In this document: positions 347 to 64,000 of the stretch, in pieces
How positions within the stretch are numbered: position 1 is the stretch's first letter
Layout: each line of letters begins with the position of its first letter
Assembly (NCBI RefSeq): GCF_001642735.1
Contig: NZ_LWHM01000026.1
Location: forward strand, 1-64,000
Reading direction: 5' to 3'
DNA length: 64,000 nucleotides
Source of the DNA: Pseudohongiella nitratireducens
Lineage (GTDB): Bacteria; Pseudomonadota; Gammaproteobacteria; Pseudomonadales; Pseudohongiellaceae
Program-made: the position numbers and the translations under genes
The notes under the pieces: model-generated
What the model was told of the DNA's origin: nothing
Databases searched by the model: none
Seen by the model: only the letters and a program-made list of their open reading frames with translations

Positions 347-1191
347 CGCCGGCAGAGAAACGCAGTATTGTCGATTATCTGGTAAGTGAGCATGGGCTCA
401 GCGTTCGGCGCAGCTGCAAAGCACTGCGACTGAGCCGCTCGACGTACGATTACCAGCCAGATACCCACAGGGACGACGAGGTGATCGAAACATTGCTGTC
501 GGCGGTTGAACGCTATCCACGCTACGGATTCAGAAAGCTGTATCACGTACTGAGGCGAGAGGGCCATCAATGGAACCACAAGCGATTACACCGAGTGTAC
601 TGCGCTTTGAAGCTTAACATGCGACGACGCGGCAAACGACGACTACCCAGTCGCAACCCGAAACAGCTGTCAGTACCGCAGTCGTTGAACCAGAGTTGGT
701 CGGTTGATTTTATGAGCGATGCACTGTACTGCGGGCGGCGATTTCGCACCTTCAATGTGGTCGATGACTTCAACCGTGAGGCTCTGGCCATCGAGATCGA
801 TCTGAATCTGCCAGCCGCACGAGTGATCCGCACGCTGGATCGACTGGCTGCTTGGCGCGGATATCCGGAGCAGGTCAGACTGGATAATGGCCCTGAGTTC
901 ATCTCGGTCGCACTGGCCGAATGGGCAGAGGAAAACAATGTGCACCTGGAATTTATTTCGCCAGGAAAACCAACGCAAAACTCATATGTTGAACGGTTCA
1001 ATCGAACCTATCGGAACGAGGTATTAGATTTTTACGTCTTCCGGAATCTGACGGAAGTTCGGAATATCACAGAACAATGGCTGACAGAATACAATGAAGA
1101 ACGGCCGCATGAGTCACTGAATGACATTCCGCCAGCAGAATATGCTCGGCTGAAAAATGAACCCTTGGCCTCTAAAAACTGTTGGCACTAA
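340..1191 (+). CDS. IS3-family transposase OrfB (expressed as OrfAB by frameshift)
   Basis: This is the integrase subunit with the DDE RNase-H fold. Read in the -1 frame after the slippery run it begins [20 protein letters not shown] and stays open to 1191. An HTH_21-like region ([17 protein letters not shown]) precedes the catalytic core: first Asp in SVDFM, second Asp in RLDNGPEF, and Glu in [10 protein letters not shown]. The end, [17 protein letters not shown], is characteristic of the family. GTG at 481 could only give a truncated product, so the fusion is the likely active form. All catalytic residues are present. Confidence 0.92.
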
Positions 1192-21530: not shown

Positions 21531-21592
21531 CCCATACACAGGTCCCCATGAACCCATCATTGATAATTAGCCATTGATTTAGTCTCTCTTAA

Positions 21593-21690
21593 ACACATTG
21601 CATTCCTTTTAGCACATCGTTTTCCTTTCAAGTACATCGCTTTCCTTTGAGCACATCGCTTTCCTTTCAAGTACGCCGTATTCCTTTTCT
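21593..21690 (+). repeat. Tandem repeat of about 19-20 bp, five units, before cysQ
   Basis: Five successive variants of (A)GCACATCGCTTTCCTTTCA, differing at two to five positions each, such as AGCACATCGTTTTCCTTTCA and AGTACATCGCTTTCCTTTG. They end about 55 bp before the cysQ start. The pyrimidine tracts give a phased TTTCCTTT pattern. This could be a slippage-prone regulatory tract or a simple minisatellite. Confidence 0.75.
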
Positions 21691-21746: not shown

Positions 21747-22589
21747 ATGGAAACCACAATGACAGAAGTGACTGATAAGACAGCGATTGAGACATCGATT
21801 GAAACAGCGATTGAGACAGCAATGACCCGTAATCCTGTTGAGATGCAGGCGGCGTTGATTGAGGTGGCGCGCGACGCCGGGCAGGTGATCATGGATATCT
21901 ACAACACTGATTTTGAAGTGCGAGGAAAATCGGATGATTCACCGGTCACTGAGGCGGATGAGAAAGCGGAAGCGGTGATCATTGAGGCTCTGCGCGAACT
22001 CGCCCCGGAAATTCCTATTATTGCCGAAGAGGCCGTTGCCGCCGGTAAAACTGAGCAGATCGCCGAACGCTTCTGGCTGGTTGATCCCCTGGATGGCACC
22101 CGTGAGTTCATTAACCGCAATGGTGAATTCACCGTCAATATCGCGCTGATCGAAAACGGCCAGCCGATACTTGGCGTTGTCTATGCGCCTGCCATCGATC
22201 GCCTCTTTGCCGGTTGCGTCGGACACGGCGCCCAGGTCATCGAAGCGGGTGAAGTCCGTGATATCCAGATTCGCGACATTCCTGCTGAGGGTCTCACTGT
22301 GGTCGCCAGCCGTTCACACGGTGATCCTGAGGCTCTCAAGCAATTTCTCGGTGACCAGAAAGTCGCCGAAGTCCGTAACGCCGGCTCCTCCCTGAAGATC
22401 TGCCTGGTGGCTGCTGGCGAAGCCGATCTCTATCCACGTCTGGGTCGTACCATGGAGTGGGACATTGCGGCAGGTCACGCAGTGTTGCGCGCGGCTGGTG
22501 GGCGGCTGACGAACCTTGAGCGGCAGGATCTGGGGTATGGGAAGGCGGGGTTTGAGAATCCGCATTTTCTGGCTTTTGGGGCGCTTTGA
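21747..22589 (+). CDS. cysQ: 3'(2'),5'-bisphosphate nucleotidase CysQ
   Basis: A 280-residue inositol-monophosphatase-fold enzyme that removes the 3' phosphate of PAP made when PAPS is used. The metal and substrate motifs are present: SDDSPVTEADEKAE, IIAEEA, WLVDPLDGTREFINRNGEFT and MEWDIAAGHAVL. It links to the cys genes at the left of the window. The N-terminus has an unusual extension of about 30 residues that includes TAIETSIETAIETAM, encoded by a 12-bp tandem repeat (21780-21827). ATG 21747 or 21759 may be the start; neither has a strong ribosome site. Downstream lies palindromic element A1, which could end transcription. Confidence 0.9.
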   Translation: METTMTEVTDKTAIETSIETAIETAMTRNPVEMQAALIEVARDAGQVIMDIYNTDFEVRGKSDDSPVTEADEKAEAVIIEALRELAPEIPIIAEEAVAAGKTEQIAERFWLVDPLDGTREFINRNGEFTVNIALIENGQPILGVVYAPAIDRLFAGCVGHGAQVIEAGEVRDIQIRDIPAEGLTVVASRSHGDPEALKQFLGDQKVAEVRNAGSSLKICLVAAGEADLYPRLGRTMEWDIAAGHAVLRAAGGRLTNLERQDLGYGKAGFENPHFLAFGAL

Positions 22590-22607
22590 GGTCATTGCTT
22601 ATGTTCC

Positions 22608-22726
22608 GGTCCTGCCAGTAGTCTGTCAAAACGCCAGACACGCCGTGAATACATCCCTGTAGGCTCTCTGTGGACATCCTTGTCCACAGAAGGTCTGGCT
22701 TACTTTGACAGACTACTGGCAGGACC
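22608..22726. repeat. Palindromic element A1
   Basis: Outer arms 22608-22630 and 22704-22726 are perfectly complementary over 23 bases (starting GGTCCTGCCAGTAGTC). Inside is a conserved core: GCCAGAC (22633-22639) pairing with GTCTGGC (22693-22699), the phrase GCCGTGAATACATCCCTGTA, and a perfect hairpin TCTGTGGACA-tcct-TGTCCACAGA (22667-22690). The same core occurs in A2, A3 and A4 with different arms. It begins 18 bases after the cysQ stop. Confidence 0.8.
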
Positions 22727-22880
22727 TACCTTCAATGCGCGTCTGACCTGTTTGGGTTTGACGCTACCCATGCCTCTAAATGCAGTTAGAGGAAGATTCA
22801 ACACGCCAAAACCTGCTCAAAAGCCAGAATCCCCCACGGGCTGAATGATAATTCCCGACCATGCCACTTGAGGGAGGTCT

Positions 22881-23104
22881 GCTCCGGGCTCTTTTCAAGC
22901 AAGCCGAGTCTTGTGCGGTGGATATAGCTACTAAGGTAGGTGCCTTGAGTCAGCAGGACAATATAAGCCGGACCGTCTGCGGACAGGGATGTCCGCAGCG
23001 AGCCTACATGGATGTATATACGGCGTGTCCGGCGTTATGTCCTGCTGACTCAAGGCGCCGGAACCACGAGGAGACAAACCCAGCGCTTGAAAAGAGCCCG
23101 GAGC
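22881..23104. repeat. Palindromic element A2, inverted core, with two nested outer stems
   Basis: Outermost stem: 22881-22900 and 23085-23104 pair perfectly over 20 bases (GCTCCGGGCTCTTTTCAAGC). Next stem: 22939-22960 and 23038-23059 pair at 21 of 22. Core 22961-23037 is the A core read on the other strand: GCCGGAC/GTCCGGC, TACATGGATGTA, and hairpin CTGCGGACA-ggga-TGTCCGCAG (22977-22998). The stretch 22590-23210 has no gene; a smaller hairpin CCTCTAA/TTAGAGG lies at 22773-22792. Confidence 0.8.
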
Positions 23105-23210
23105 AGGCCGGAACCGTGGCAGCGGGAACTGTAGAAATCCTGTAATATGGAATCAGGGATAATGAGAAACGTCATACTCACAAGGACTAAGCAGTAATGA
23201 GGGAGCAGCT

Positions 23211-24986: not shown

Positions 24987-25342
24987 TCAGACTATTGGCC
25001 TTGTTCAAAGTTCCCACGTTTGTGCAAAAAAATTTACGTTATCCCTCAAAACAATACTTAACTATCTGAAAAATAATAATTAAAAATTCAAAAAATTACT
25101 TAAAGTAATTTCACAGAAGATTGAACTTGATGGTGGTGCCAGCGGTTAAAGTTCGCCATGGTTGTTACATTACCGTGGCTGAGAAGATTCTATTCAGAGT
25201 GGGAGTCCCCGGTACGATTAAAGCAGACGCTGTGATTTTCAGGTGCGCCTCTGACATTTGAATGCCGCAGTGACAGGATTGAGCGAGCAAGGCGTGCGTT
25301 CGAGCAAAAGAACCACCACCAACAGAACCCAGCACAAGGGAA

Positions 25343-25501
25343 GGGTATCATGGCTCAGAGGGCAGACAGTAAGACCACGTTAAGCATATCGCCTGTCGCT
25401 CGAAAACGCGGGCGGACTGTTTGAAGCCGCCAGGCTGAGTTTCCGCCCGCCGAGCGACAGGCGATATGCTGTGGTCGTCTGCCCTCTGAGCCATGATGCC
25501 C
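25343..25501. repeat. Palindromic element B1
   Basis: Outer arms GGGTATCATGGCTCAGAGGG-type and its complement pair across 25343-25367 and 25477-25501. Inner arms AGCATATCGCCTGTCGCTCG (25383-25402) and its complement (25451-25470) pair perfectly. The central core has GCGGGCGG/CCGCCCGC and the conserved phrase GAAGCCGCCAGGCTGAGTTT. The left side has short insertions (AGTA, GTTA) that would bulge. Family mates are B2 and B3 at 35.0-35.4 kb, with compensating base changes in the stem. Confidence 0.8.
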
Positions 25502-25561
25502 TGACCGCCTCCCCAGATTCATCAACGGTGCCCGGCATAAATTACGCCGAGCACCTGAAAA

Positions 25562-34390: not shown

Positions 34391-34510
34391 GGCGCAACTG
34401 GTGTGTAGGTTCAAACGCCAGACGCGCCGTGAATACTTCCATGTAGGCTCGCTTCGGGCATCCATGCCCTCAGACGGTCTGGCTTTTTGAACCTACACAC
34501 CAGCTGCGCC
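34391..34510. repeat. Palindromic element A3
   Basis: Outer arms 34391-34415 and 34486-34510 (start GGCGCAACTGGTGTGTAGG) pair at 24 of 25 positions. The core matches A1: CGCCAGACGCGCCGTGAATAC, then TCCATGTAGGCTCGCT, then hairpin GGGCA-tcca-TGCCC (34456-34469), then GGTCTGGCTT. It lies just after the glucosaminidase stop. The arms share no sequence with those of A1 or A2. Confidence 0.8.
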
Positions 34511-34542
34511 TCAAGTCAGTGCTACTCAGAATTTAAGAGTTT

Positions 34543-34692
34543 AGCGCTTGGTGACGGACGTCCTGTCCGCCGACATCCCTCCTGAATCACACGTATACCC
34601 GCCGGTCTTGTGCTCACTCACAGATTTTCAATATTGCTGAGTGTATTACGCCACAAATGACGCCGCGCTGTTTCAGGAGAGGTTTTCCATGC
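34543..34692. repeat. 150-bp direct repeat C1, a half element of the A4 type
   Basis: Matches 34826-34975 with only scattered changes (for example GTGACGGACG against GCGGCGGACG). It holds the hairpin GACGGAC-gtcct-GTCCGCC and the right arm TGAATCACACGTATACCC, but lacks the left arm of A4. Immediately after, 34689-34720 (CATGCCCGCAGAAGGTCTGG...) resembles the right half of A3, so it is a recombined mosaic. Confidence 0.75.
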
Positions 34693-34777
34693 CCGCAGAA
34701 GGTCTGGCTCTTCTAACCTTATCTGCCAGGAACGCCTCAAGCCAGTGCTACGCCGATAATTAAGGCTTAAGCGCCCA

Positions 34778-34885
34778 GCGGGTATACGGGTGTTCACTCG
34801 GGAGCGCGCGTAAATCCATCCCTGGAGCGCTTGGCGGCGGACGTCCTGTCCGCCGACATCTCTCCTGAATCACACGTATACCCGC
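34778..34885. repeat. Palindromic element A4
   Basis: Left arm 34778-34796 (GCGGGTATACGGGTGTTCA) pairs with right arm 34866-34885 (TGAATCACACGTATACCCGC) with two differences. The core has GCGCGTAAATCCATCCCTGG and the perfect hairpin CGGCGGAC-gtcct-GTCCGCCG (34835-34855), corresponding to GCCGTGAATACATCCCTGTA and the GGACA/TGTCC hairpin of A1. It overlaps direct repeat C2. Confidence 0.75.
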
Positions 34886-34975: not shown

Positions 34976-35000
34976 TCTGGCAGGAATCAACGGCACAAGG

Positions 35001-35165
35001 TCAGTGCATCATAGCTCAGATGGCAGACAATAAGACCACGTCCAGCATATCGCTGGTCGCTCGAGAAAGCGGGCGGACTGTCCGAAGCCGCCAGGCTGAG
35101 TTTCCGTCCGCCGAGCGACCAGCGATATGCTGTGGTCGTCTGCCATCTGAGCTATGATGCGCTGA
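35001..35165. repeat. Palindromic element B2
   Basis: Outer arms 35001-35028 and 35138-35165 pair at 27 of 28. Inner stem AGCATATCGCTGGTCGCTCG pairs with its complement. The core phrase GAAGCCGCCAGGCTGAGTTT is identical to B1. Relative to B1, the stem positions CCTGTC/GACAGG became CTGGTC/GACCAG on both sides, and GAGGG/CCCTC became GATGG/CCATC: compensating changes. Confidence 0.8.
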
Positions 35166-35249
35166 CCGCTCCACCCGAGTTTTCGGCTGCCGGGTGAGGG
35201 GCGCTAGGCAGTGGTCGGCTGAGATACGTAAAATGATGTCCTGACCGCC

Positions 35250-35358
35250 GCTCGAGAAAGCGGGCGGACTGTCCGAAGCCGCCAGGCTGAGTTTCCGCCC
35301 GCCGAGCGACCAGCGATATGCTGTGGTCGTCTGCCACCTGAGCTATGGTGCCCTGACC
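35250..35358. repeat. Palindromic element B3, left arm missing
   Basis: It starts at GCTCGAGAAAGCGGGCGGAC, repeats the B2 core and the whole right arm (GCGATATGCTGTGGTCGTC then GCCACCTGAGCTATGGTG), but the sequence left of it is unrelated to the expected outer left arm. It is a half copy 85 bp from B2. The entire 34367-35378 gap is filled by elements A3 to B3, with no gene. Confidence 0.75.
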
Positions 35359-36604: not shown

Positions 36605-36788
36605 CGCTGCAAAAGTACCCTTGGCGCTGGTCGAGGAGTGCGCAGTAAATCAAACCATAATGTCACACACGTTCCGACACATTAGCCTGGGTGCCCGCAG
36701 GCTTCATTGCCACGACAGTGCACAATGAACAACGGGTTGGCTGATGGGGTGCGTGGAGGCTTAACCCGATAGAAATAGGTATTTACTT
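36605..36788 (+). promoter_or_regulatory. Probable rpsB leader RNA, S2-responsive
   Basis: The stretch from the promoter to the rpsB ATG has no ORF but several potential stems (GGGTGCCCGCAGGC and TTGGCTGATGGGG areas). In many gammaproteobacteria the rpsB leader is a conserved site where ribosomal protein S2 represses its own operon. The assignment comes from position; I have not confirmed the fold. Confidence 0.4.
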
Positions 36789-40171: not shown

Positions 40172-40936
40172 ATGACAAACACGGACAGTCAAAGCGAAGT
40201 CACGCACAAACAACCCCGACATATCGCGATTATCATGGATGGTAATAATCGCTGGGCTCGTGGACGCGGATTATCAGGTGGAGCCGGACACCGGGCCGGT
40301 GCAGAAATTGCGCGCGACGTGGTGCACGGCTGTGCAGATCGCGGTATAGCGTACCTGACATTATTTGCTTTCAGCAGTGAAAACTGGTTTCGACCGGACA
40401 AAGAAGTGAAAGGTCTGATGGCGCTGTTTCTGAGTGTGCTCAAGCGCCATGAGATTAAGCAGATGCATGAGCGTAACATTCGCCTGCAGTTTATTGGTAA
40501 ACGTGATGATTTCTCGCCACGATTACAGAAAAACATGCGTGAAGTGGAAGAGCTGACGCGACACAATACTGGCCTGGTGGTTACAGTGGCAGCAGATTAT
40601 GGCGGTCGCTGGGATATTGCCCAGGCCTGCCAGGCTGTGTCCCGGCAAGTGCAATCCGGGCATATTAATGTTGAAGACATTACGCCGGAGCTGTTGCAGA
40701 ATTTTGTCAGCATGGGTGATGTGCCGGAACCGGATTTGTGTATTCGCACTGGTGGGGAGCGACGCATCAGTAACTTTTTGCTCTGGCAATTTGCTTATAC
40801 AGAACTGTACTTTACTGATTGTTACTGGCCGCAGTTTGATGAGACTGAACTTCAGCAGGCTATTGATGATTTCAGCCGCCGGAAGCGCCGATTTGGCCGC
40901 GAGTCCGGCAGTGATGAACAAGAAAAAATAACGTAA
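40172..40936 (+). CDS. uppS: Undecaprenyl diphosphate synthase
   Basis: A 254-residue cis-prenyltransferase. The N-terminal motif HIAIIMDGNNRWARGRGL holds the catalytic aspartate, followed by GHRAGAE, FAFSSENWFRP and the C-terminal RTGGERRISNFLLWQFAYTE. It makes the C55 carrier lipid for peptidoglycan and LPS. The stop is followed by a 12-bp tandem repeat that separates it from cdsA. Confidence 0.97.
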   Translation: MTNTDSQSEVTHKQPRHIAIIMDGNNRWARGRGLSGGAGHRAGAEIARDVVHGCADRGIAYLTLFAFSSENWFRPDKEVKGLMALFLSVLKRHEIKQMHERNIRLQFIGKRDDFSPRLQKNMREVEELTRHNTGLVVTVAADYGGRWDIAQACQAVSRQVQSGHINVEDITPELLQNFVSMGDVPEPDLCIRTGGERRISNFLLWQFAYTELYFTDCYWPQFDETELQQAIDDFSRRKRRFGRESGSDEQEKIT

Positions 40937-40940
40937 TTAG

Positions 40941-40988
40941 TAACGTTAGCAGTAACGTTAGAAGTGGCGTTAGCAGCAGCGTTAGCAA
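40941..40988 (+). repeat. Tandem repeat of 12 bp, four units, before cdsA
   Basis: TAACGTTAGCAG, TAACGTTAGAAG, TGGCGTTAGCAG and CAGCGTTAGCAA, immediately upstream of the cdsA ribosome site GGGAG. The 74-bp gap is occupied almost entirely by it. Confidence 0.75.
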
Positions 40989-63002: not shown

Positions 63003-63719
63003 ATGATGACGAAGATTCATGTTGTGGTACCGGCAGCTGGTTCTGGCCGTCGCATGCAAAGTGCGGTGCCCAAGCAGTATCTGACATTATCAGGTGAGTC
63101 GGTACTGTCGCATACCCTGAAGCGATTGCTCGCGGCCTTACCTGCGTTATCCACCCTGACTGTTGCGCTTTCCCCGGGTGATGAACAAGGCAGGGCACTG
63201 CTTAGACAATTGGCATCAGATTATCCTGGCAAAGCCATTACGACCGCTCCGGGTGGCGCAGAAAGAAGCGATTCGGTTCTTAACGCCCTTGATGCCTTGC
63301 GGGATGTGGCCGGTGATCAGGACTGGGTGCTGGTTCATGATGCTGCTCGTCCCTGTGTACGGGGTGACGACATAGCCCGGATGATGGCGGTACTGTCAGA
63401 GACGCCTGATGTGGATGGCGGCTTGCTCGCTGCTCCGGTGGCTGCGACATTAAAGCGCAGCGATTCCGAAGACTGTATTATGGAAACAGTTGATCGCCAA
63501 CAGGTGTGGGCCGCAGCTACGCCGCAGACGTTCCGTTATCATGCGCTTCGGCAGGCGCTGCTTAAGGCTAATGAGCATGAAATCTCGGTAACTGATGAAG
63601 CCAGCGCCATGGAAGCTGTGGGAGCAAAAATAAAGTTGATTCCCTGTCAGCCGGACAATATTAAAATTACCTGGCAAGGTGATATCGCCATGGCTGAAGC
63701 CATATTAAAGAGCCAGTAG
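63003..63719 (+). CDS. ispD: 2-C-methyl-D-erythritol 4-phosphate cytidylyltransferase
   Basis: A 238-residue nucleotidyltransferase. HVVVPAAGSGRRMQSAVPKQ, then ARPCV and TDEASAMEAVGAKIKLI are typical. It makes CDP-ME in the MEP pathway started by dxr upstream. ATG 63003 or 63006. The stop runs into a tandem repeat before ispF. Confidence 0.96.
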   Translation: MMTKIHVVVPAAGSGRRMQSAVPKQYLTLSGESVLSHTLKRLLAALPALSTLTVALSPGDEQGRALLRQLASDYPGKAITTAPGGAERSDSVLNALDALRDVAGDQDWVLVHDAARPCVRGDDIARMMAVLSETPDVDGGLLAAPVAATLKRSDSEDCIMETVDRQQVWAAATPQTFRYHALRQALLKANEHEISVTDEASAMEAVGAKIKLIPCQPDNIKITWQGDIAMAEAILKSQ

Positions 63720-63782
63720 CCATGAGCAAAAAACAGCCATGAGCAGAGAAACAGCCATGAGCAAAAAACAGCCATGAGCAAG
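63719..63782 (+). repeat. Tandem repeat of 17-18 bp between ispD and ispF
   Basis: GCCATGAGCAAAAAACA, GCCATGAGCAGAGAAACA, GCCATGAGCAAAAAACA and a partial GCCATGAGCAAG. Each unit contains an ATG. In the first three the frame soon ends or leads into the next unit. It stops 8 bases before the ispF start. Confidence 0.8.
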
Positions 63783-63790
63783 TGGATACT

Positions 63791-64000
63791 ATGACCAAAC
63801 AATCGACCACAGCCATACCCGATATCCGCATTGGACATGGCTATGATGCGCACCGTTTTGCAGCGCCAGAAGACCAGCGGGCATTAATACTGGGTGGTGT
63901 CACAATACCGCATGATCGCGGACTGTTGGCGCATTCTGATGGTGATGCACTGATTCATGCTCTCTGTGATGCTATTCTGGGTGCCCTGGCGCTGGGTGAT
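63791..64000 (+). CDS. ispF: 2-C-methyl-D-erythritol 2,4-cyclodiphosphate synthase (5' part)
   Basis: The window ends after 70 codons. [20 protein letters not shown] then HRF gives the metal-binding D and [21 protein letters not shown] then [17 protein letters not shown] carries the second conserved histidine. The gene is cut by the window edge, not broken. ATG 63791 was chosen because the repeat ATGs upstream do not lead into this frame with a ribosome site; the start is therefore only probable. Confidence 0.92.

Follow-up and report, generated by a model that had tools for sequence, protein, structure and literature searches.

Two gaps between genes in the window, the whole 64,000-nucleotide stretch of Pseudohongiella nitratireducens DNA analysed here, are occupied by long palindromes. 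Copies A1 and A2 share one of 621 bases, flanked by an inositol-monophosphatase-family gene and an NAD-dependent epimerase gene; A3 and A4 share the other, which has a glucosaminidase-domain gene on one side and a polysaccharide deacetylase gene on the opposite side. A1 and A3 begin about 20 nt past a gene end. The features are listed below; bit scores refer to R1, a covariance model of the core built from six copies.

22608-22726: A1, whole palindrome, long and near-perfect, around a 67-nt core
22608-22630, minus strand: A1 outer arm, 23 nt, full complement of the right arm at 22704-22726
22704-22726, minus strand: A1 second arm
22633-22699, minus strand (the GGA strand, taken as functional): A1 core, 94.6 bits
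22652-22659, minus strand: A1 loop CAGGGATG, of the form CANGGANG, in the predicted fold
22675-22682, minus strand: A1 loop CAAGGATG, of the form CANGGANG, in the predicted fold
22939-23059: A2, whole palindrome, long and near-perfect, around a 67-nt core
22939-22960, plus strand: A2 arm, 22 nt, its single mismatch with the partner arm being T.G on the plus (GGA) strand
22967-23033, plus strand (GGA strand): A2 core, 91 bits
22984-22991, plus strand: A2 loop CAGGGATG, in the predicted fold
23007-23014, plus strand: A2 loop CATGGATG, in the predicted fold
23038-23059, plus strand: A2 second arm
34391-34510: A3, whole palindrome, long and near-perfect, around a 67-nt core
34391-34415, minus strand: A3 arm, 25 nt, with a single mismatch that is A.C on the plus strand and G.U on the GGA strand
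34417-34483, minus strand: A3 core, 82.3 bits
34459-34466, minus strand: A3 loop CATGGATG, in the predicted fold
34436-34443, minus strand: A3 loop CATGGAAG, in the predicted fold
34486-34510, minus strand: A3 second arm
34800-34864, minus strand: core of A4, a decayed copy with gapped arms (weak match, 29.4 bits, E 0.0024)

The conserved core and self-complementary arms described in the original prediction are real, with arms pairing over 23 nt at 100% in A1, 22 nt at 95% in A2 and 25 nt at 96% in A3. A core common to all four copies had also been claimed; a sequence pattern finds it in A1 and A3 on the plus strand (22633-22699 and 34417-34483) and in A2 on the minus strand (22967-23033), and A4 has a weak R1 match. 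Each of the three intact copies presents two loops of the form CANGGANG in its predicted fold, the five-base loop cores being AAGGA and AGGGA in A1, AGGGA and ATGGA in A2, and ATGGA twice in A3. The further claim that all copies sit in gene-free gaps holds in the window. Elsewhere 72 of 251 copies fall inside putative open reading frames of at least 150 amino acids, taken at face value from a crude six-frame caller: 11 of 75 in genomes G028, G021 and G026, 16 of 26 in two Stenotrophomonas genomes and 45 of 150 in named genomes.

The window contains 8 exact inverted repeats with arms of at least 12 nt starting within 150 nt, and in 7 of these the arms reach at least 18 nt, a count that takes in all palindromes, those of a second family (B) too; the chance expectation for arms of at least 12 nt is a mean of 0.4 in 30 first-order Markov sequences. 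The second palindrome family is found at 25342-25502 and 34999-35167, with a partial copy near 35241-35357. Here an outer pair of arms (26-30 nt) encloses an inner pair (20-21 nt), and the centre is common to the copies. By eye its arms are related, with changes matched on both sides. An exact 22-nt inverted repeat (22879-22900 and 23085-23106) surrounds A2 outside its arms. Such an outer repeat (at least 13 nt exact, at most 170 nt from the core) was found in none of 87 copies from three other genomes, and a second enclosing palindrome was rejected as a general feature. Fragments of the repeat lie between A3 and A4 at 34540-34600 and 34686-34708, the latter with a flank, CTTCTAACCTTATCTGCC, in common, with two differences, with copy L004 on contig C25. 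Short direct repeats occur at 21586-21663, 21780-21823, 40929-40976 and 63718-63797, with spacings of 39, 12, 12 and 35/17 bases. Other Rfam matches in the window are t44 at 36646-36765 (plus strand, upstream of rpsB) and isrN at 357-487 (minus strand), barely over its cut-off.

Searching the genome itself with R1 gave 8 matches at E<=1, A1-A4 among them, and two of the other copies (L012 and L014) have fully folding arms of 24 and 25 nt that by eye are unlike the others there. Relatives carry the repeat too: there were matches at E<=0.01 in 20 of 37 genomes, the window's own included, with the highest copy numbers in G021 (73), G028 (38) and G026 (29). In a search of 398 genomes drawn from the phylum, again with the window's own included and with stricter filters (E<=1e-5), 27 had matches and all belong to one class. 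The core pattern occurs in at least 120 stretches of named genomes, and its hosts among the matches listed include Stenotrophomonas, Xanthomonas, Rheinheimera, Marinobacter, Microbulbifer, Methylotuvimicrobium, Sodalis and Yersinia similis. Inverted pairs of copies are frequent, with about 90-290 nt separating the cores, and one locus (L252, G230:C1:94437-95639) has six direct tandem copies with a period of about 227 bases. A plasmid collection gave no match to window positions 22590-23110, and the viral contigs have the repeat in one stretch only.

Rfam already lists this repeat, with one family for each strand, which the original prediction overlooked. A2 matches RF01731 (TwoAYGGAY) with 52.1 bits against a cut-off of 43, on the GGA strand and over positions 1-168; the fast-filter gathering search of Rfam misses A2, and a more permissive search detects it. 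At E<=10 A2 was the sole match to RF01731 among 19 loci, A1 and A3 being without one, and at E<=1 the 20 loci searched in G028 and G026 gave none. Eight whole genomes gave 8 matches to RF01731, 2 of them over the cut-off and none in G000. Five of the 8 overlap RF02770 (Ysr224) on the other strand and 2 more overlap an R1 match; the last (G026:C22:58761) overlaps neither among the matches listed. RF02770 itself matches the TCC strand of one Yersinia similis locus, two Sodalis loci and one record of the viral collection. With a cut-off of 70, L240 (133.9), L188 (126.5) and L182 (82.9) score above it and L196 (61.7) below. In the 8 genomes no match to RF02770 exceeded the cut-off, the best in G000 scoring 31.4, and many copies match weakly. 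Judged from sequence, RF01731 and RF02770 are opposite strands of one repeat.

The literature search found no paper joining TwoAYGGAY with Ysr224; four papers give two or more of the names and accessions of these families, in every case for a single family. In the accessible parts of the papers no account was found of TwoAYGGAY as a repeat of high copy number whose arms vary freely. The authors of PMC4333381 are presumably Gardner and Eldai. Binding of CsrA by TwoAYGGAY has already been proposed in that paper, as far as its accessible text goes (PMC4333381). Weinberg et al. (2010), in the part available, consider TwoAYGGAY probably an RNA and probably not cis-regulatory. The available text of a paper from 2025 describes several Ysr224 copies with copy-specific expression in Yersinia ruckeri.

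The fold of the core is conserved. In an alignment of 124 distinct rows 89.4% of the cells are paired, and the covariation score, for an alignment fitted to the structure, is 0.647 compared with 0.196 after shuffling, a value reached in none of 500 shuffles, while structures slid along the alignment score at most 0.134. Changes on both sides are seen in 21 of 23 core pairs (shuffled mean 18.0); the number of further pair types does not rise (62, compared with 64.5 in shuffles). The loops are nearly constant in sequence. In 134 aligned copies the three bases of GGA are kept in 132/133, 132/133 and 131/132 in hairpin 1 and in 130/133, 126/130 and 132/132 in hairpin 2, and an A stands two bases 5' of GGA in 132/133 and 122/124 respectively. 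A regular expression applied to 87 copies finds CANGGANG in hairpin 1 of 81, ANGGA in hairpin 2 of 64 and both in 63; some of the remaining copies have AGGA, with the spacer base missing. The base preceding GGA is often no pyrimidine, in contrast to the AYGGAY of TwoAYGGAY. In its available text PMC4353343 uses A/U-CANGGANG-U/A as the Rsm site.

If pairing is needed on one strand only, the mismatches left in the arms are expected to be wobbles there. Counted on the TCC strand, the arm mismatches of 309 copies, many of them related, are A.C in 345 cases and G.T in 61. The bias persists in 149 copies with mutually unrelated arms (from 420 candidates, 62 dropped for low arm score and 209 as relatives), with 134 A.C to 26 G.T (p ~1e-18) and 42 T.C to 9 G.A, and within three single genomes, where A.C to G.T is 32:5, 11:1 and 23:5 (3 of 87 copies dropped). 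The single arm mismatches of A2 and A3 are both G.U on the GGA strand. Because A.C on the TCC strand reads as G.U on its complement, it is the GGA strand that folds, and the predicted folds are more stable on it in 22/30, 32/34 and 16/22 copies. The original prediction that the structure is kept and not the sequence is thus supported and sharpened, both by this one-strand bias and by the covariation of the core. Two of the outcomes named in advance as refuting it, a lack of further copies in the genome and a lack of covariation, did not occur. The bias fits RNA best. It is no proof of RNA since G.T is tolerated in single-stranded DNA and a strand-biased mutation process could also produce it.

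The best explanation of these observations, to which we give a probability of about 0.6, is that a repeat of the TwoAYGGAY/Ysr224 type is scattered in many copies and that its RNA presents two loops on which CsrA can dock, carried by a stalk selected for pairing alone; CsrA docking is the most likely function. In a transcript of the GGA strand, a stalk of 20-25 bp would lead through an inner 7-bp stem to a three-way junction. Each of the two hairpins there would present an ANGGA loop, and one CsrA/RsmA dimer would grip both loops. The copies may titrate CsrA or recruit it to the transcripts that host them. With selection on the stalk for pairing only, its sequence would drift through compensated changes and whole-element exchange between copies, while the loops, the junction and, often within a genome, the core stay constant. 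All 25 genomes searched for csrA, selected as carriers of the repeat, have the gene, which tests little because csrA is so common in this class. Against this reading stand the absence of a gene-orientation bias, the placement of Ysr224 on the TCC strand by Rfam and the few copies matched by RF01731.

Dispersal of this kind could also come from a mobile single-stranded DNA, in which the GGA strand folds as DNA and is moved by an enzyme, either transposase or recombinase, that recognises the loops and the junction, as at REP or IS200-type ends. This is the strongest of the alternatives, and unlikely. It would account for the many dispersed copies, the frequent inverted pairs and the lack of a clear trend in gene orientation, and the G.T mismatches would be tolerated in DNA too. 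It also agrees with a comparison of G037 with its congener G026, in which only 1 of 7 G037 copies (L343) lies in a gap common to a sampled G026 locus, with the orientation opposite to the G026 copy there; the comparison covers one genome pair and 21 sampled G026 loci (20 distinct), a part of the G026 copies. The neighbour gene of another G037 copy (L342) is 47% identical to the gene beside L098. That the positions of copies differ within a genus suggests turnover.

The mover itself was sought among Y1 transposases through the family PF01797. There is no match to it in G021, which has 73 copies, and none of 26 Y1 loci in 11 genomes has a copy of the repeat within flanks of about 1.5 kb, so a REP-like Y1 mover was rejected. 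Wide pairs were considered as ends of autonomous elements at four loci (L189, L199, L141 and L129), where by eye the inner open reading frames include no transposase. At L141, the stretch 401-2360 between two inverted copies holds an ATPase-like open reading frame of 425 amino acids and another of 152. The loops, moreover, match a known RNA-protein site. In integron attC sites the outer simple sites are conserved and an integrase is linked; the repeat here is the reverse, with a conserved centre and variable arms. REP/BIME and REPIN elements are likewise dispersed intergenic palindromes, often in inverted pairs (in part from the accessible text of PMC2817692), but the fold here is larger and branched, the arms are copy-specific and the Y1 transposase is not linked.

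The relation between arms and core was followed in 87 fetched copies from three genomes (30, 35 and 22, a part of the copies of each). The two arms of a copy are 87.8, 93.5 and 92.0% identical when compared as complements, and own arms exceed the 95th percentile of between-copy arms in 29/30, 27/35 and 22/22 copies. In G026, inner cores match at 96% identity or more in 33 copy pairs, whose arms give a mean local score of 4.8 compared with 4.7 after shuffling; ungapped, their mean arm identity of 0.33 lies slightly above the shuffled 0.25. The cores of L087 and L088 agree in all 66 nt, and their arms are unrelated. The hairpin-2 stem is also free to vary between copies. With 19 of the 22 G026 copies parsed, it is identical in 27 of 171 pairs, whose arm identity is 0.43 (shuffled 0.39), and in G028 in 3 of 378 pairs, with 0.38 (shuffled 0.41). 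In G021 it is identical in 35 of 595 pairs and the arms reach 0.76. These hairpin-2 and arm figures suggest that in G026 the core and the arms have had histories apart from each other. By eye, the outer ends of many G026 copies are alike, with CCGGC on the left and CCT then GTGCCA on the right, and there are exceptions.

Xanthomonas copies have arms in common and G021 copies do so in part; there the arms are apparently inherited largely or partly together with the core. The original prediction that arms share no sequence between copies, which sharing between loci would count against, therefore stands for A1-A3 and strikingly in G026 and fails in Xanthomonas and partly in G021.

Two sites were followed through 91 genomes of the genus of G339 (taken as Stenotrophomonas), where 50 and 48 loci were fetched and 4 and 5 had no usable stretch. 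At the first site, with 42 distinct stretches, two core types with unrelated arms lie between shared outer flanks. At the second, 23 distinct alleles fitting the pattern of the script fall by eye into four hairpin-2 classes, each with its own arm type; the exception (L372) combines the arm type of one class with another's hairpin 2. The alleles at both sites suggest that one element replaces another at a fixed position, mostly as a whole, and ordinary recombination between copies could account for such exchange of arms and core. In the largest class of the second site (11 alleles, 55 comparisons) 115 differences are one-sided and 20 two-sided. Since they are mainly one-sided, arm correction is not rapid, and rapid self-correction was left unsupported. 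The mismatches of all alleles at that site are 17 A.C and 5 G.T. Small palindromic or IS-like insertions within the loops of the repeat were seen in Stenotrophomonas (L295, L299, L300, L301, L304, L347, L374, L376, L384, L385, L387), by eye often in the same loop in different species.

A comparison of strains for empty sites had been proposed. The element-free Stenotrophomonas sites are by eye deletion-like or miss the region altogether, so neither of these two sites yielded a true empty site. Clean empty sites, along with terminal repeats and a target-site duplication, would mark a MITE. Congeners of the window's genome were set aside for this purpose as too distant, their best flanking genes being just 67-73% identical. 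The other proposal of the original prediction, in which new palindromic arms are built around a core that moves, stays conjectural: identical cores do occur on unrelated arms, and at the two Stenotrophomonas sites arms and core were mostly exchanged together. A related and rather doubtful possibility is that the core is an independent unit, spreading or converting from one set of self-complementary arms to the next; it would be a selfish element of RNA or DNA that mimics a docking site for CsrA and travels between hairpins. One genome would then hold identical RNA heads on unrelated, perfectly paired stalks. The parting of identical cores from unrelated paired arms is explained by no mechanism tested.

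It is improbable that the TCC strand is the functional sRNA, that is, Ysr224 as annotated, with the GGA strand its mere complement. The Rfam model does lie on that strand with high scores, up to those of L240 and L188, and the Yersinia ruckeri copies are expressed. The mismatches, however, are mostly A.C, C.T and C.C on the TCC strand and G.U, G.A and G.G on the GGA strand, and the predicted stabilities given above also favour the latter.

Still less credible is an origin of the complementarity in mutation alone, with template switching perfecting quasi-palindromes and no selection for folding. Perfect arms such as those of A1 (23/23) and, by eye, of L012 and L014 would be its natural product. 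Strand symmetry would be expected from it, and the mismatches are asymmetric; the excess of one-sided differences among the 11 alleles of one class at one site also speaks against it.

A simple role in ending transcription, or in stabilising the 3' ends of convergent genes, is very improbable: the starts of A1 and A3 close behind a gene fit it, but the neighbour arrangement of 109 single copies is near-even (29 convergent, 20 divergent, 60 same-strand), a T-run is absent after the arms of A1-A3, and conserved loops and a one-strand bias would be needless. The same 109 copies have a neighbour reading into the TCC strand in 63 cases and into the GGA strand in 55, and 92 paired copies in 52 and 37, so that no bias is seen with rough ORF calls and 50 of 251 copies dropped at locus edges. 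With orientation unbiased, a role of the copies as CsrA sites in the 3' ends of genes on the GGA strand was rejected.

The repeat resembles several known systems, with some differences. Like TwoAYGGAY it has two GGA-loop hairpins atop a long outer stem, but its loops are broader (ANGGA instead of AYGGAY) and most tested copies are below the cut-off or unmatched. The core is the same as that of Ysr224 read on the opposite strand, and both are multi-copy; Ysr224 is annotated on the TCC strand, and its model stops short of the right arm. CsrB/RsmZ-type sRNAs have many sites in one gene, whereas the repeat here has two sites per copy and many dispersed copies. What they share is paired GGA hairpin loops for a dimer, as described in the accessible text of PMC4333381.

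The repeat is real and widespread, and it places a known but unexplained RNA motif in a new light: two Rfam entries with unclear roles are the two strands of one widespread gammaproteobacterial repeat, with dozens of copies in some genomes. Identical cores on unrelated paired arms are a clear case of pairing alone being inherited, which calls for a mechanism. If the loops bind CsrA, the repeat would form a large, movable pool of CsrA sites beyond the known sRNAs, and strains could differ in the setting of their Csr system through the number of copies they carry.
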